Translations under genes and position numbers: made by a program
DNA from: a virus
Reading direction: 5' to 3' (one strand)
IMG/VR virus record: IMGVR_UViG_3300042485_000327
Location: 1-34,621 of that record
Length of the DNA stretch: 34,621 nt
Notes under the pieces: generated by a model
Databases searched by the model: none
Told to the model about the DNA's origin: nothing
What the model saw: the letters and a program-made list of their open reading frames with translations, nothing else
In this document: one piece after another, positions 24,403-31,867 of the stretch
Layout of the letters: each line of letters starts with the position of its first letter
Numbering within the stretch: the first letter of the stretch is position 1

Positions 24403-24743
24403 ACGGGTGTCTCCGGGTCGTTGCGATAGCAGATATAAGTCACCTTCATCCGATCATTCGATTCCCTAATGTCCGTAATTCTCCAATCAAATCCGCGCCA
24501 AGTAATGCTAAACAAATTCTGGTTATCTACGATCTCCTTATTATTCGGAGTGTAATTAACCGTGATCTTTACTAAGTCTTGATAGACTCTATATCTCTCG
24601 CTTATCCGTAATGAATTAGCTACGTCAGCCACAAGCCCTCGCGTCTCGAACCACGGAGTAATCGTGGTCGTGTATTCCCCAACGGTATCAACCCCGTTGG
24701 TGACGTTATTAATCGTAAGGTTCTCATAACGGACTATAGTCAT
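24399..24743 (-). CDS. head-tail stopper/joining protein (HK97 gp7/SPP1 gp16-like, putative)
   Basis: 114 residues from the ATG at 24743, which shares its A with the preceding TAA stop. An outer start 48 bases further out lies inside the connector gene and is less likely. The protein is beta-rich (TIVRYENLTINNVTNGVDTV, ENLFSITW-like strand at NQNLFSITWRGFDWRITDIR, then MKVTYICYRND). Order between the gp6-like adaptor and the tail terminator fits the stopper that plugs the portal channel. Confidence 0.65.
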   Translation of the reverse strand: MTIVRYENLTINNVTNGVDTVGEYTTTITPWFETRGLVADVANSLRISERYRVYQDLVKITVNYTPNNKEIVDNQNLFSITWRGFDWRITDIRESNDRMKVTYICYRNDPETPV

Positions 24744-25405
24744 TACATCACAAGCGGCTTGTATGGTCGAAGTAAAGTATCCACGCCCCAACTAATCATT
24801 TGGGTTGTATTCATCGCCCCGTTGCTAGTCGCACTTCTGTTGTTGTAGATGTGCGTAAGCAGCATTAATCCAGCCTGTTTAACGACAGGATAATTCGCAA
24901 TAGGGTTAGCGTTTTGCGTGTATGTGACTATGATCGGATTAGCAAAGGTCTGATTAAGCGTGGTAGGTATTGCCGATACCACAACTCTATTCCCTGTCTG
25001 ATCGTAGAAATAGTTACTTGATGCCAGAGTAATTGGTGCGTTACTTTCCACTCCGTAATAGCTAACTGAATTGACTGTAACTCCTGTCGATCCAATTGAT
25101 ACTTCTGGCAAGTCGAGATAAAGTGCCGAACCATAGACGCCAGCATTGCCGTAATACACTCTGAACTGCGTGCTGAATATAGCCATCCCTAAATAATCTT
25201 CAATGGCAAATCGAGTTGCTAGTTCGATGCTTTCGAGATAAGCATCCTGAGATTCGTCTTGAAATAGGTTTAACTGCTGCGTTATTTCCTCAAGCGAGAG
25301 CCATTGCGTTACCGTGTCCCGCGCTATCTGTTCTACTTTCGCATAGTTATACGGATTTCGGTTTGATCCGAAAAACTCCGATAGCGTCATATTTTCGACT
25401 GGCAT
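24743..25405 (-). CDS. head-tail connector (HK97 gp6-like adaptor)
   Basis: 220 residues. The N-terminal helical part (QWLSLEEITQQLNLFQDESQ, YLESIELATRFAIEDYLGMA) is the signature of the gp6/gp15-type adaptor that forms a ring under the portal. A beta insertion follows (GVTVNSVSYYGV), then a C-terminal helix (YPVVKQAGLMLLTHIYNNRS). It is next after the second capsid gene. The end (SWGVDTLLRPYKPLVM) matches the LL.PYR-type close common in the family. Confidence 0.88.
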   Translation of the reverse strand: MPVENMTLSEFFGSNRNPYNYAKVEQIARDTVTQWLSLEEITQQLNLFQDESQDAYLESIELATRFAIEDYLGMAIFSTQFRVYYGNAGVYGSALYLDLPEVSIGSTGVTVNSVSYYGVESNAPITLASSNYFYDQTGNRVVVSAIPTTLNQTFANPIIVTYTQNANPIANYPVVKQAGLMLLTHIYNNRSATSNGAMNTTQMISWGVDTLLRPYKPLVM

Positions 25406-25415
25406 AGTTCACTCC

Positions 25416-26453
25416 CTATGCTGGACAGACTGCGCGCACACCAGCAAATACATCACGAATGGTTGAGCATACCCGCTTCTCTGCATACAGAGAAATAAAT
25501 CCGGGCTGATACTGCTCAAGACGTTGAATACTCATCATTTCGTTATCGGCAATGGTCATGAAGCTATCCCAAGCGGCTAGATAGATAGGGTAGGTGCTTG
25601 CCCCATATTCGCTCATGTATGGGTTTGGAATGACGGGGAATCCAAAAATGCTACATACGGAACCACCATCATCATCACCTGATTCAAATAAGACTGGGAA
25701 TCCAGCGGTGTCTTTCAATTGCCTAAACAATTGAATTGTGTTTGGGTGCATCATCCACGCTGTACACGGACTCATCCAATACTGTGCAGGAAGTGCAGAA
25801 GCTAAAGCGGTAAGGTCGTTGTAAGTAACAACAGTTTTAGACGCTGCGGCTGTCTGTAGCATCGTGTGCCGACCATTAGTAGTTGCTGATCCGCTAGTGC
25901 CGAAAGATGCTGCCGAGGTACTTCCAGCATATAAATTTAATCCGCGCAGCCCGTCAACCTGACCAGTTTGGGGTGTTGATGCTCCGCTAGCTTGGTCGTT
26001 GTTCAACATCATAGAAAGGGCTTCTTGCTGTGCGAATTCTAAGGCTATATCTGAGACAATGCTTTCATCAAGTCCGTTAATGTCAGACATAATTGCCGTC
26101 CGAATAGGCACGACTGCATTAATAGATTTAACAGAGACTTGCCAGAAAGATGTGGCGTAGTTGCCTACATCATTCTTTACGCTGTAGCCCCACGGGTTCG
26201 TGGTGCTAGTTTGAATTACTGTAGCGTTACCTGTCTTGACTACGAAGGCTTCATCAGAACCGATAGTGGTTATTTCGCGAACGCCACACATACGAAAGGG
26301 GTTGCCGTATCGCAATGGCGCAAAGGCTTGATCGTAAATAACGCGACCACCGACACCAGTACCAGAACCCGTAAGTCCGGCTGCTTCCTTCAAACTAACA
26401 TCAGCCCGACCCTCGGACAATGCTGTTTTTACTGCTTCGAGAATTAGGCTCAT
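25416..26453 (-). CDS. second HK97-fold capsid protein, lacking the delta domain
   Basis: 345 residues, clearly paralogous to the larger capsid protein upstream. Matching blocks include KEAAGLTGSGTGVGGR, WGYSVKN, PIRTAIMSDINGLDESIVSD, VDGLRGLNLYAG, ALPAQYW, FGFPVIPNPYM and QPGFISLYAEKRVCSTI. It starts only about 22 residues before the KEAAGL block, so it lacks the 80-odd-residue coiled-coil delta domain and the presumed cleavage site. AAAGGA precedes the ATG. It may be a minor shell component, such as a pentamer or portal-vertex subunit, made at a lower level because of the hairpin at 26479-26496. Confidence 0.85.
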   Translation of the reverse strand: MSLILEAVKTALSEGRADVSLKEAAGLTGSGTGVGGRVIYDQAFAPLRYGNPFRMCGVREITTIGSDEAFVVKTGNATVIQTSTTNPWGYSVKNDVGNYATSFWQVSVKSINAVVPIRTAIMSDINGLDESIVSDIALEFAQQEALSMMLNNDQASGASTPQTGQVDGLRGLNLYAGSTSAASFGTSGSATTNGRHTMLQTAAASKTVVTYNDLTALASALPAQYWMSPCTAWMMHPNTIQLFRQLKDTAGFPVLFESGDDDGGSVCSIFGFPVIPNPYMSEYGASTYPIYLAAWDSFMTIADNEMMSIQRLEQYQPGFISLYAEKRVCSTIRDVFAGVRAVCPA

Positions 26454-26478
26454 GTGAGTTTCCTTTAAATTGGAAAGA

Positions 26479-26496
26479 CGGGGGATTTCTCCCCCG
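26479..26496 (-). terminator. terminator-like hairpin between the two capsid genes
   Basis: On the minus strand CGGGGG-AGAAAT-CCCCCG is a perfect six-pair GC stem with a six-base loop, followed by TCTTTCC. It sits in the 50-base gap after the larger capsid gene. The T tract is imperfect, which suggests partial termination or a barrier to 3' exonucleases. Confidence 0.7.
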
Positions 26497-26503
26497 CGTT
26501 TTC

Positions 26504-27847
26504 TTAGTCGTTAGCCGTATAGGTTGAACGGTAACGGATAATGCTGAAAGGATCAACAACGCTGGTACATAGACGCTTCTCGCCGAAGAAAGTAATAAAT
26601 CCGGGGAGAGTCTGATCGTACCTACGGAGAACCATATTCAAACGATCGACGATGGTATGTCCGCGCGACCAGTCACCAAAATACATTGGGTACAGGTTAT
26701 TTTTGTCCACTCCAGCGTAGCTAGGGGTATCCAGATACTTATTCACAACAACATCGAATCCACACAAGCGACCTACGATTCCGTCTGTTTCCAGAGGACT
26801 CATACGCTCGAATACTGGCGTGCCGTTGTCATCGGTCAATCCGCGAATCTGTGAAAGCAAAATTGGATTGATAACGAAACGTGCAGATGTTGTCCAGTAT
26901 TGTTGTGGCAACGCATAGATGAAGTTAATAACGTCCTTGTACTGGATGTTTGCTGCGCCAGCGGCGTTGCCATTCGTTACCAACTGGTCGTAGGTAGCGA
27001 TGCTAGACAATCCACTGCTAGAGCCTGTTCCGCTTGTTCCGTATGCAGCCGTAGTGGTTACACCCGGAGCGTAGGCACCGTTACCACCAGCGTATTGGTT
27101 CAAACCGCGCAGACCATTAATACCACCAGTTGCAGCGATAACACCAGCATCAGAGCTTTGATCGTCGTTCTGGATCATTGAGATACCTTCTTGCTCACTG
27201 AACTCGACCAACATATCAGATACTACGTTGCTTTCCAGACCATCAATGTCGTCCAGTGCAGCGGTACGCAATGGGAACTGAACATTAATATCTTGCAGAG
27301 TCAGTTGCCAGATATTCGTGGCTACTGTGGTTGCCGATCCGTTGTTCTGGATAGGATAGCCCCAAGCCGGGCCAGTGTTGCCAATTTTGGCGCGGAATTG
27401 ATAGGTAGAGCCATCAGTTGCAACGGTGCGTGATACGCCGCGCATAGGATTAGCCAAACGCAATGCAACGAATACAGGATCATAGGCAGTACGACCGCCG
27501 ACACCCGCGCCAGAACCCTGTAGGCCAGCGGCTTCTTTTAAGAAAGCGTCATACTGGGAATCGCTCTCGAACAGGCTAATTTCTTTTTCCATCCGGCTAC
27601 TAGACTTCGTGAAGTCGCTCAGTTGTTCCTTAACTCTGCGGTTCACATCTTGCGAGACGGTCTTAGCTTTAGGCTGAATGATTGAAGGGATTTGAATAGA
27701 TGCAACCTTAGCTTCTAGGGCTGCGACTTTCTCATCGACCTCGGCGCGTACAGCTTCCAGAGATACATTTACTTCGCTCTTGATTTCTTCGATCTTGGCA
27801 GTGTTAGCTGCTTCGATATGGTCTAGCTTCTCAATAACTTCGTTCAT
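26504..27847 (-). CDS. major capsid protein, HK97 fold with delta domain
   Basis: 447 residues. Residues 1-80 are coiled coil (EEIKSEVNVSLEAVRAEVDE, KVAALEAKVASI), the scaffolding delta domain of HK97-type capsids, normally removed by the protease encoded next to it. The shell part starts near KEISLFESD..FLKEAAGLQG and includes QFPLRTAALDDIDGLESNVV, EQEGISMIQNDDQSSD, INGLRGLNQYAGG and the P-domain end LPGFITFFGEKRLCTSVVDP. AAAGGA precedes the ATG. The exact cleavage position cannot be read with certainty; it should fall about residues 85-100. Confidence 0.95.
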   Translation of the reverse strand: MNEVIEKLDHIEAANTAKIEEIKSEVNVSLEAVRAEVDEKVAALEAKVASIQIPSIIQPKAKTVSQDVNRRVKEQLSDFTKSSSRMEKEISLFESDSQYDAFLKEAAGLQGSGAGVGGRTAYDPVFVALRLANPMRGVSRTVATDGSTYQFRAKIGNTGPAWGYPIQNNGSATTVATNIWQLTLQDINVQFPLRTAALDDIDGLESNVVSDMLVEFSEQEGISMIQNDDQSSDAGVIAATGGINGLRGLNQYAGGNGAYAPGVTTTAAYGTSGTGSSSGLSSIATYDQLVTNGNAAGAANIQYKDVINFIYALPQQYWTTSARFVINPILLSQIRGLTDDNGTPVFERMSPLETDGIVGRLCGFDVVVNKYLDTPSYAGVDKNNLYPMYFGDWSRGHTIVDRLNMVLRRYDQTLPGFITFFGEKRLCTSVVDPFSIIRYRSTYTAND

Positions 27848-27858
27848 TTTAATTTCCT

Positions 27859-28653
27859 TTATTTAAGACGTTGGGATAATGCCTTCAGCAATTCTCGCTC
27901 TTTTAGGGCTTTAAGAATTTCGTCGGCTTGCTTTGTTGCCACCGCATCAGGCTCCCCCTGAGTTGGTTGAGTGTCAAGATTTTTATGGGTGGCTTCCCGC
28001 GCATCCACTATTTTCTTGAATACCATAGATGCGGTGGTCGCATCTTTTCGCGTTAACCCTGCTTCCCGCAGAGTCTTTTCGATTACTCGAATCATTAGCT
28101 GTCCTTCAGCATTAAATGCTTCCAGCCTACTGATTTCTGAATTAGGATTATTGGGGTACATTACGACAGAGACTTCCCGCAGACCGCCTTTAGTGATTCT
28201 AAAGTAGCCATCAGCCTCTTTTGTTGGGTTGCCTTCTTCATCGACCATCGCTGCTTCTTCTGCGAACGCGCCGACACTGACACCACCAAACATATTAGGA
28301 GATTCTTTTAATACAGAATGAAGATCAGAGCCGCCTACAGTATTCATGTAGATTTGCCCTTTAGCTGTCATGCCTTCTTCATCGAAAGAAAATTCGTTCC
28401 ACTGACCGACAGGCATACCGCTGTCATTGTGGTTTAGGAACATAGGAAGCGGCTTATCCGCTTTGGAGAATTCGTCTGCCCATTGAGCAAAGCCTTCCGG
28501 CTGATAATTAAATCGCCGACCGTCTAGCCCTTCTCTCGCACCCCAAGTGGTAGCACGAGCCTCTATAGAGCCTCTATTGCTGCTTAACTCGCTTTCGTCT
28601 AGGCTTAGTTTCGCTTCGCAAACTAGCATCAGATTTTTCATTGACTGCCCCAT
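27859..28653 (-). CDS. HK97-type prohead protease (S78 family)
   Basis: 264 residues. The serine protease core is visible: IEARATTWGAREGLDGRRFN, LPMFLNHNDSGMPVGQW with the catalytic His75, and SPNMFGGVSVGAFAEEA with the nucleophile Ser126, then LREVSVVMYPNNPNSEI. The last 70 residues are helical and probably shed or used in targeting. An inner ATG at 28641 has GGGG upstream and could be the true start. The first part overlaps the 67-residue gene by 70-80 bases. It trims the delta domain from the capsid protein. Confidence 0.93.
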   Translation of the reverse strand: MGQSMKNLMLVCEAKLSLDESELSSNRGSIEARATTWGAREGLDGRRFNYQPEGFAQWADEFSKADKPLPMFLNHNDSGMPVGQWNEFSFDEEGMTAKGQIYMNTVGGSDLHSVLKESPNMFGGVSVGAFAEEAAMVDEEGNPTKEADGYFRITKGGLREVSVVMYPNNPNSEISRLEAFNAEGQLMIRVIEKTLREAGLTRKDATTASMVFKKIVDAREATHKNLDTQPTQGEPDAVATKQADEILKALKERELLKALSQRLK

Positions 28654-28777
28654 TATTTATAGATTGATTATTATCTTTTATTGTATGTGGCTTCTCAAGA
28701 GTAACCGCCGGAATAACTACATCCGACTTCCTTACTTGTTTAGCAAAAAAACCTAGTATCGTATCGAGGATGCTCAT
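28574..28777 (-). CDS. small protein between portal and protease
   Basis: 67 residues. The ATG overlaps the portal stop (ATGA) and AGGA lies upstream. It opens MSILDTILGFFAKQVRKSDV, echoing the portal opening MGILDIF, and ends strongly basic (ETKPRRKRVKQQ). The last 70-80 bases are shared with the protease gene in another frame. The opening could be an amphipathic helix. Start context supports translation, but the function is unknown. Confidence 0.5.
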   Translation of the reverse strand: MSILDTILGFFAKQVRKSDVVIPAVTLEKPHTIKDNNQSINNGAVNEKSDASLRSETKPRRKRVKQQ

Positions 28778-30168
28778 GTTTTTCCTATGTTCATTTTACT
28801 CGTTTGATTCCCGCCTCCACCACCTGTATCTTGTGGGCTTGTTCCATCTATCATACCACCACTTGCGTTCTGTGTTAACTGATCTCCACCAGCGACCATA
28901 TCCATATTCAAATATTCTCTCGCTTCATTCGGGGTAAATATACCATTAGAGACACCAGCTACCACAAAATTCATTTGGTCTAGGGCTGCACCTTTTAAGA
29001 AGTCTTTTGTATCGAATCTGATCGAGAGGTTAGGGTAGCCCTTTAATAGATGCTGCTTTAACTTTTGCTCTATGTTGATAATCATCGGGTACATAGTTGT
29101 TTTGTAGAACTCATCCAGTAGCGTCTGCGTGTTATTGAACTTCCCGTCTGATACCCCTAGCATTTGAGGAGGTACGCCGAATAGACCGCATATCCGCTTC
29201 ATAGTCTGAATCTTTAATTCGGCAGTCTGAGCGTCTTGTAGGGTTAGCATATCGACAGGCGTATATTGCATCCCCTGATCTAATAACATTCCCTGACCTG
29301 CTTTACTCAAGTCTGAGTTCCTACTTCCAGTCATTGCGTTCCAAGTCTCTTTAAGGCGGCTTGCTACTTCTTTATACTTTGCGTCTGGGATAACTTGATC
29401 GGTAGTAAAAATGCCGGAGGGCTTCGCGCCGTTCTGCATAATGAAGTTAGCGTAAACGTCTATATCCTGATCGAGTGCGACTAACTCGGTCGCTAGGATG
29501 CCCTTGTTAAAGCCTGACGATCCCTGCCACGGTGCTTCCTTAATGTGCATCACTTGATGAGATTCTAGCGGCTGATCTTTGCTGAAGCCGTAGCTCGGAG
29601 TTGACAGACGGTATGAAGGGTAGCGCGTAGGATTCAGAATAACCGTGATGAGGGTCGAATCCAGCATATACATTTCAAGCGGGGTCGATAGACTATCCTT
29701 CTGGTCTTTTCTCCACCATAGCGTGAACGACTCGCCGCTTATGTCTTGCCACATACACCACTGATACCAGAACTCGTACTGACTCTGAAAATTATTAGGG
29801 TTCGTTAGCAATGCTAGAACCTGTTTCGCTTTAGCCTTCTCTCTATTGCCTATCTTCGGATCAGTGAGGGCGTTGGTAAAGGTGCCGTCATCATTCTTAG
29901 ACATTACCGCCAGAGAGCATTGGGCCAGCGACCGAGCCTTCACCCCAACGCATGACATAACAGTAGAGTTCCGCGTCAGTGCGGACACATCTATAACGCG
30001 ACCTGCGACCGTAGTGCTGCTAGTTGTTACATAGAGTAGCTGCGAGGATGTGGACTGTTGACCTGCGGTGGCGTATACAACCTGATTCCCTAATTGTAAT
30101 TGTCCCAGAACTGTATTAGCTTCCTTTTGTAGCGTGGCCTTACTCTTAAAAATGTCTAGTATTCCCAT
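28774..30168 (-). CDS. portal protein (HK97 gp3-like)
   Basis: 464 residues from the ATG at 30168, five bases behind GGGGG; a GTG four codons earlier is part of that SD. Family patterns are the VMSCVGVKARSLAQCSLAVM helix, QSQYEFWYQWCMWQDISGES, HIKEAPWQGSSGFNKGILAT, QDIDVYANFIMQNGAKPSGI, and RICGLFGVPPQMLGVSDGKF. The C-terminal wing ends in a Gly/Asn-rich tail. It forms the dodecameric DNA entry ring at one vertex. It is followed immediately by the small gene and protease and preceded by terL. Confidence 0.95.
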   Translation of the reverse strand: MGILDIFKSKATLQKEANTVLGQLQLGNQVVYATAGQQSTSSQLLYVTTSSTTVAGRVIDVSALTRNSTVMSCVGVKARSLAQCSLAVMSKNDDGTFTNALTDPKIGNREKAKAKQVLALLTNPNNFQSQYEFWYQWCMWQDISGESFTLWWRKDQKDSLSTPLEMYMLDSTLITVILNPTRYPSYRLSTPSYGFSKDQPLESHQVMHIKEAPWQGSSGFNKGILATELVALDQDIDVYANFIMQNGAKPSGIFTTDQVIPDAKYKEVASRLKETWNAMTGSRNSDLSKAGQGMLLDQGMQYTPVDMLTLQDAQTAELKIQTMKRICGLFGVPPQMLGVSDGKFNNTQTLLDEFYKTTMYPMIINIEQKLKQHLLKGYPNLSIRFDTKDFLKGAALDQMNFVVAGVSNGIFTPNEAREYLNMDMVAGGDQLTQNASGGMIDGTSPQDTGGGGGNQTSKMNIGKT

Positions 30169-30199
30169 CGAAACCCCCACAAATTTTCTTGATCTTATC

Positions 30200-31867
30200 T
30201 CAAAAACTTCTGAAACCGAAGCTATTTGAGATGAAAGGATTATCTAATGCACAATGAGCCGCAATAATTAACGCGATGATACCATCTACCTTCGCCGATT
30301 TGTCAGCCTCGTTTTTCCTTACTTTTATATTAGAATTCACGTCCGTGTAAACTTCGCAATTCCCTAGCTGCCACCCGACAAAAGGATTGCCCCTGTGCGT
30401 GATCTGCTTGCTCATAATCATCCTTTCAATGAACTTAGACGGGTTATTTAATACGCCCATCCCCTGTCCTACCTTCTTTACTGGTACGCCAGCATCATGC
30501 AGCCTAGCTACAATTGAAGCGGCATTATAAGCATCATAGCCCACCTCTTTCACATCATATATCTCGCACTGTGATTTAATGTAGTCGGAGATTTCTCTAT
30601 CGTCCATCACGTTGCCTTCTGTGATCTGCAATATCCCGCTGGCAATAGCAACCCTAAATATATCTTGGTAGTGGTTAGGTATTAGGGCTAGACCTGCTTC
30701 CGGCAAAAAGAACTTCCACTCAGCGTCGAAGTCTGATTCCCCGTACCGCTTCAGAGTACAGACCGCGTTCAAATCTCGCGTAGCTGCCAGATCGAATCCC
30801 ATAAACACGGACTCGGGTTCTGGTCTAGGTTCTTTAATACATATCGGGTCATCCCAGTGTTGACGGTCGATCCACGCGGTGTTAGCAGATACAAAGACAT
30901 TCAGCGTCTTGCATAAGAACTCATTAAGTGCCGCTGGTTTGTGGCTTGCTTCTTCGGCTCGTTGTTTAATGGCTTCTTCAAATACCGAAACGCCGTGCAT
31001 CGGATTAGCCTTCCCCCAAGTTGCCGGATCGTGCCAGTCATCCTGTAGGTCTAGGCCATAGAGCAAACCGAACCATCGTGGATTATCTACAGCGTCTCCG
31101 TGCAGCATCGACTTGTACATCACCAAGTCCTCGTGGAACTTTGTGTCTTTAGTAAATGACGCGGTTGTAATATATATCCGCAATGGGTTTTTTCTTGCCA
31201 CCATTCCAGAGTGTAATACTTCGATAGTGTTTCGGTCGAGTACCTGCGCGGCTTCGTCTACGATAACGCATGAAGGATTTTTCCCATCGCCCGTCTTTTT
31301 GGTATCGCGGGATAACGCTTTAAACATTGACTGCGTATCGCCCTTTCTTTTTATCTCATACTTGCTCACCACGAACTGATTAGCCATTAAAGGGTTCTCC
31401 ATACTCTCTATGAAGCCTTTGGCTGCATCAAAAACGATTGTAGCTTGCTCTCTATTGGTTGCGACAGTAAAGACCTCAGAACCCTTCTCTCCGCAAACCA
31501 GTTCATAAAGGGCGATCACTGCGGTGAGCGTAGACTTCCCAGACTTGCGAGGAATGAATAGTATTACATCCGTTACCATCCGCTTCTTTCTATCGCCCTT
31601 CTTACGGAAGCCGTAGACCGCGCAGATCAGAAGTTCTTGGAATGGAGCGAGTACGATTGGCTGCCCCGCTAGTGGGCCTTTGGTATGGACAAGACGGGAC
31701 GCGAATCCTAAAACGTGTTCGACATAACGAGCATCGAACTCCCATTCCCATTCTTGGTTTTCGTACTGATTGAGAAACCGCTGACAGGAAAGCCGTATTT
31801 CAGAACATACGCTTACATCACCCCTCGCTACAGCCTTCGCGTAAAGTACACCATCTTCCCAACTCAA
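30200..31867 (-). CDS. terL: terminase large subunit (HK97-like)
   Basis: 555 residues. The ATPase has Walker A PRKSGKST (106-113) and Walker B VIVDEA (201-206), with ITTAS as the coupling motif. The RNase H-like nuclease carries MGFDLAATRDLNAV, VGYDAYNA and KVDGIIALIIA, giving three acidic residues. It packages DNA into the prohead and cuts it. The start is TTG at 31867 overlapping the terS stop (TTGA), with no nearby ATG, so expression is probably coupled to terS. The N-terminal domain (YAKAVARGDVSVCSEIRLSC) is typical for the P27/HK97 group. Confidence 0.95.
   Translation of the reverse strand: MSWEDGVLYAKAVARGDVSVCSEIRLSCQRFLNQYENQEWEWEFDARYVEHVLGFASRLVHTKGPLAGQPIVLAPFQELLICAVYGFRKKGDRKKRMVTDVILFIPRKSGKSTLTAVIALYELVCGEKGSEVFTVATNREQATIVFDAAKGFIESMENPLMANQFVVSKYEIKRKGDTQSMFKALSRDTKKTGDGKNPSCVIVDEAAQVLDRNTIEVLHSGMVARKNPLRIYITTASFTKDTKFHEDLVMYKSMLHGDAVDNPRWFGLLYGLDLQDDWHDPATWGKANPMHGVSVFEEAIKQRAEEASHKPAALNEFLCKTLNVFVSANTAWIDRQHWDDPICIKEPRPEPESVFMGFDLAATRDLNAVCTLKRYGESDFDAEWKFFLPEAGLALIPNHYQDIFRVAIASGILQITEGNVMDDREISDYIKSQCEIYDVKEVGYDAYNAASIVARLHDAGVPVKKVGQGMGVLNNPSKFIERMIMSKQITHRGNPFVGWQLGNCEVYTDVNSNIKVRKNEADKSAKVDGIIALIIAAHCALDNPFISNSFGFRSF

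Follow-up and report, generated by a model that had tools for sequence, protein, structure and literature searches.

Tandem HK97-fold capsid genes in a widespread siphophage lineage: the second product is probably a minor shell protein and may be a penton subunit

In most HK97-type phages the hexamers and pentamers of the head are built from one and the same protein, T4 being the textbook exception. The viral DNA analysed here, a stretch of 34,621 nucleotides referred to below as the window, carries two capsid genes in tandem. What is the second of these for?

The two genes, MCP1 and MCP2 (Table 1), belong to a head operon with the order terminase large subunit (TerL), portal, a 67-amino-acid ORF, S78 protease, MCP1, MCP2 and gp6-like connector. 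BLASTP aligns the two products over 362 columns with 37% identity (E 3e-66). They score 77.5 and 88.6 bits against the PF05065 Phage_capsid profile (curated cut-off 24.2) and both match PHROG 10/15928 ('major head protein'). AlphaFold models were built from alignments of the window proteins with metagenomic relatives, leaving out the rows of Methylophilaceae phage P19250A. Confidence in these models is modest (mean pLDDT 56 for MCP1 and 71 for MCP2), and Foldseek matches both, over the whole shell domain, to RcGTA and HK97 shells with a probability of 1.00. The best match of both proteins, by model and by sequence profile, is the RcGTA major capsid protein (PDB 6tb9/6tba/6tsu), their nearest solved relative at an identity of only 14-19%. 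The RcGTA shell is made from a single capsid gene product. HK97 gp5 resembles MCP1 in its fold, its N-terminal delta domain and its association with an S78 protease; this one protein supplies both types of capsomer, hexamers and pentamers, and its cleavage follows Lys103. A first-pass annotation of the window had described two tandem HK97-fold paralogues, only one of them with a delta domain. ORF positions, BLASTP, Pfam, PHROG and the AlphaFold models all confirm this, and the N-terminal delta domain proposed for the 447-residue protein appears in its model as three predicted helices. The MCP2 model begins with only a short helix (residues 3-14) and a strand.

Table 1. Position of the capsid genes, their neighbours and the sequence elements discussed in the text (window coordinates)
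Feature	Position	Strand	Evidence
Terminase large subunit	30200..31867	(-)	PF20441/PF03354
Portal protein	28774..30180	(-)	PF04860 E 1.4e-62
Prohead protease, Peptidase_S78	27859..28653	(-)	PF04586 E 2.9e-9
Conserved [V/I]-C-E-A motif near the start of the protease	28612..28623	(-)	
MCP1 (447 aa), HK97-fold major capsid protein	26504..27847	(-)	ORF; PF05065 E 6.1e-25; AlphaFold/Foldseek match to RcGTA and HK97 capsids
Delta domain of MCP1 (residues 1-105)	27533..27847	(-)	Predicted helices 2-50, 64-81 and 96-105; ends at invariant E105
Candidate cleavage site, MCP1 L103-K104-E105/A106	27530..27541	(-)	Invariant Glu; form as in the T4 gp23 site
MCP1-MCP2 gap: terminator-like hairpin (stem 26497-26478) with an imperfect U-tract	26470..26497	(-)	Gap MFE -19.9 kcal/mol, z -4.2
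MCP2 (345 aa), HK97-fold capsid paralogue lacking a long delta domain	25416..26453	(-)	PF05065 E 1.5e-21; Foldseek to RcGTA capsid E 1.1e-17
Putative mini-propeptide of MCP2 (short N-terminal extension, residues 1-23)	26385..26453	(-)	Conserved helix xILxAIKxALxEG, then L-x-E, in 100 aligned loci; helix in model
Candidate cleavage site, MCP2 L21-K22-E23/A24	26382..26393	(-)	Invariant Glu; P3 Leu in 158 of 170
Head-tail connector (gp6-like), adjoining MCP2 on its downstream side	24743..25405	(-)	PF05135, PHROG 442

The pair is a fixed trait of its lineage. A locus counted as testable if its MCP1 stop was complete and the sequence continued for 1.2 kb or more downstream of it. Both genes are present in all 365 such loci (269 distinct pairs), a sample of the nearest relatives with the far edge of the family lying outside it. 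The first-pass annotation had proposed looking for the same pair in related genomes and for decay of the 345-residue reading frame in close relatives; essentially no decay was found. Loss of MCP2 was also considered and rejected, the two seeming absences being reading-frame offsets of one contig. The family is large in IMG/VR, with a few additional MAG contigs, and its carriers are widespread, little-studied and mainly aquatic siphophages. In the annotated phage collection, relatives of both genes occur only in P19250A, and Burkholderia phage Bcep176 gives one distant match (22%). The earlier view that such a pair is uncommon in siphophages of this size is consistent with the annotated collection but does not hold within the lineage, where the pair is universal.

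Some loci depart from the usual arrangement. In L044:5692-7020, and likewise in L045-L047, the reading frame of MCP2 extends upstream through a domain of ~98 aa with no assigned family. This gives a 442-aa ORF and may represent a gained N-terminal domain. MCP1 of L051 (257-1669) lies in two overlapping frames, probably due to a sequencing or assembly frameshift, and the C-terminus of the L074 MCP2 is shortened and shifted. Five head-module contigs (L159, L160, L161, L162 and L163) have been binned into MAGs of Nitrosotalea, Alpha-, Beta- and Gammaproteobacteria and Rhodocyclaceae; this binning may be wrong and the hosts are therefore uncertain.

P19250A (KX815270) is an isolate with the same order TerL-portal-protease-MCP1-MCP2-connector, and its MCP1 and MCP2 are 66% and 51% identical to those of the window. 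In this phage MCP2 (P19250A_0006) carries no annotation beyond 'hypothetical protein', and the literature searched yielded no structural study of this phage. Similarly, a limited set of literature on two or paralogous capsid proteins in siphophages contained no description of the pair of this lineage. Methylophilales phage Venkman (MT375522) is said to resemble P19250A, as a marine variant (PMC8163748). We rejected it as a second cultured carrier: it has no match to MCP1 or MCP2. Its head module (L417:30815-32827) is podophage-like, with a single capsid gene, a separate scaffold gene and tail tube A/B. A diverged duplicate of the capsid gene has been described in Caulobacter phage Colossus, a large siphophage of the phiCbK group (PMC3556154). 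There, however, ~21 kb separate the two copies, and the case is that of one phage of a much larger type; the genes of the present pair are adjacent.

A tree of 40 pairs separates the MCP1 rows (40) and the MCP2 rows (40) into two sister groups with 100/100 support. This implies one duplication or acquisition older than the diversification of the lineage, and a single old duplication would account for both genes. Purifying selection on the two is equally strong (median dN/dS 0.076 for MCP1 and 0.072 for MCP2 in 43 close pairs), while the mean pairwise identity of 59% for MCP2 against 68% for MCP1 indicates a somewhat faster amino-acid divergence of MCP2.

The gap between the two genes, usually 47-77 nt, holds a strong G+C hairpin. 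Using as criterion a stem of at least 6 pairs, at least 5 of them G-C, a hairpin lies at most 75 nt from the MCP1 stop in 265 of the 269 distinct pairs; in two of the remaining four an interrupted hairpin is visible by eye. Hairpins with a T-rich tail occur in the 70 nt after the MCP1 stop at 148 of 185 loci, compared with 27 of 18140 other 70-nt windows, and are rare after MCP2 (8/171). The T-tract of the window hairpin itself is imperfect: TCTTTCCA. The hairpin sequences are diverse (122 distinct), and no structural RNA families were found in the window. The hairpin is most simply explained as an attenuating terminator, or else as a 3' stabiliser, through which MCP1 would be expressed above MCP2 and the neck and tail genes. 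A position of MCP2 behind an attenuator fits the expectation for a minor component, although the hairpin predicts reduced expression of everything downstream and no vertex role in particular. It also bears on whether MCP2 might be a co-major protein, forming mixed capsomers or an alternating lattice with MCP1 at comparable copy number. Two full-length shell subunits under equally strong selection would fit this arrangement, but we regard it as improbable, since the hairpin predicts unequal expression and the scaffold-like delta domain is present on MCP1 only.

The N-termini of the two proteins share a motif. MCP2 had been thought to begin near the presumed cleavage point of its neighbour; its start in fact lies 23 residues ahead of the point where the shared motif ends. 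The N-terminal consensus of MCP2 (100 loci) is xILxAIKxALxEGxxTVNLxEASALTGSG and that of MCP1 after the delta domain is xYDAYxKEASALTGSG. Among 170 distinct pairs, Glu occupies P1 in all 170 MCP1 and all 170 MCP2 proteins, P3 is L, M, I, F or V and P2 is free to vary. At P1', 149 MCP1 proteins have A or S and 165 MCP2 proteins have A. Judged by sequence, this L-x-E-[A/S] conservation pattern is that of a protease site of T4 type. The protease carries a conserved [V/I]-C-E-A near its own start in 154 of 156 relatives, a possible self-cleavage site. As MCP2 combines a short extension with the same invariant motif as MCP1, it is probably cleaved as well and not 'born mature'. The first-pass annotation had the 345-residue protein entering the prohead without needing cleavage. 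That part does not agree with the retained extension and motif; the accompanying suggestion of a minor shell or pentamer role is supported indirectly by the universal pairing, the purifying selection, the hairpin and the T4 gp23/gp24 parallels described below.

Within a phage, MCP1 and MCP2 resemble each other most in the motif region, which provides the top nine of all 9-residue windows (~4 SD). The excess over the cross-phage average is 0.044 there against a mean of 0.004 (window SD 0.010; 329 shared columns). Such resemblance is expected for two substrates of one protease and suggests that both are substrates of a single co-evolving enzyme, although the effect is small and part of it may be due to phylogeny and relatedness. 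Recent gene conversion as the source of the common motif was rejected because there is no excess of synonymous codon identity (0.469 in the motif and 0.474 elsewhere).

The same residues could instead be a structural element of the N-arm, with the N-terminus of MCP2 being kept. The motif runs directly into a conserved N-arm, T-G-S-G-x-G-x-G-G-R, in both proteins, and the Peptidase_S78 of HK97 cuts after Lys, so that we infer Glu specificity here from the form of the motif. However, a free P2, an invariant P1 Glu and P3 and P1' of fixed type are features of a protease site, a similar motif lies at the N-terminus of the protease itself, and the prohead proteases of T4 and of giant phages cleave after Glu in x-x-E motifs (for giant phages, PMC5694885 and PMC10052503). 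We therefore consider a purely structural motif rather unlikely. It would concern maturation only and is compatible with a vertex role for MCP2.

The motif is also relevant to whether MCP2 builds a separate particle outside the infectious head, such as an encapsulin-like shell or an alternative capsid. Encapsulin shells share the HK97 fold and have no delta domain, and MCP2 likewise lacks a long one. Nevertheless, MCP2 keeps a protease-type motif that co-varies with that of MCP1, and its gene is always flanked by MCP1 and the head-tail connector inside the head operon; we judge a separate particle very improbable.

The closest parallel is with T4. Genes 23 and 24 are also adjacent paralogues with the major capsid gene first and the minor second, and they encode a long and a short N-terminal propeptide respectively, as is predicted from sequence for MCP1 and MCP2. 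The T4 protease gp21 removes 65 residues from gp23 and 10 from gp24 and trims nine of its own N-terminal residues; gp24 is the penton protein and is thought to derive from gp23 by duplication (PMC9958956). In the T4 record the sites are FLTE/A (E65/A66) in gp23 and LLRE/S (E10/S11) in gp24. MCP2 similarly is a paralogue of MCP1 encoded immediately downstream of it, and its short predicted propeptide ends in L-x-E and is followed by a small residue. T4 also has a hairpin with TTTTTT after gene 23 and before gene 24, comparable to that between MCP1 and MCP2. There are clear differences: T4 is a large prolate myophage and the carriers of the present pair are siphophages; the T4 scaffold consists of separate proteins, while here a delta domain is fused to MCP1; and gp23 and gp24, ~20% identical to each other, are not detectably related in sequence to MCP1 and MCP2. 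No sequence homology of MCP2 to the gp24 family was found (its only Pfam match is PF05065, and gp24 is not among the PDB sequence matches). MCP2 is therefore not filed as a member of that family, only as possibly gp24-like in function. The T4 GIY-YIG homing endonuclease gene segD sits between genes 23 and 24, and similar ORFs lie exactly between MCP1 and MCP2 at L152:5815-6528 and L074:5339-5992 (a NUMOD3 match in L074 and an FYIGKG motif in both).

Taken together, MCP2 is very probably a minor or specialised shell protein of the virion. Within that class we favour, by a modest preference, a penton or vertex protein working like T4 gp24. A minor subunit at another special place, either a ring at the portal vertex or positions in hexamers that set capsid size or curvature, would account equally well for everything that suggests a minor protein of shell fold processed by the protease. 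An insertion of ~70 aa, rich in beta structure, in the MCP2 E-loop of L073, L075, L078 and L079, absent from the window MCP2, is in keeping with such a site. We think another site unlikely, though still to be reckoned with: the known minor HK97-fold paralogue whose short propeptide is cut at a site of this kind, T4 gp24, is a penton, and no sequence feature points to the portal. MCP1 is of normal length in L073, L078 and L079, and the E-loop insertion of MCP2 may be a surface decoration.

If MCP2 is a penton protein, the system could work as follows. After an old duplication of the major capsid gene, MCP2 would have become a dedicated minor subunit. MCP1, with its built-in delta scaffold, would be made in excess of MCP2 and of the neck and tail products because the hairpin directly after its gene lowers transcription into the downstream genes. 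MCP1 would form the hexamers; MCP2 would enter the same prohead and fill the non-portal vertices. The S78-type protease would then cut after the Glu of L-x-E-[A/S], removing ~105 residues from MCP1 and ~23 from MCP2. Still more tentatively, and with somewhat less confidence than in the penton role itself, we suggest that these HK97-type siphophages of ~35-40 kb independently evolved a penton protein, with the attenuator setting the hexon/penton stoichiometry and a Glu-specific S78-type protease removing both propeptides, as a smaller system convergent with gp23/gp24 of T4.

MCP2 genes are at present annotated as 'hypothetical', or would be counted twice as major capsid proteins in phylogenies. 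If the penton reading is true, the pair would represent a second independent penton/hexon specialisation, in an abundant lineage of small siphophages with a cultured member, and would show how such specialisation evolves after duplication. It would also provide an accessible model of one protease maturing two shell proteins, and of expression setting their ratio.
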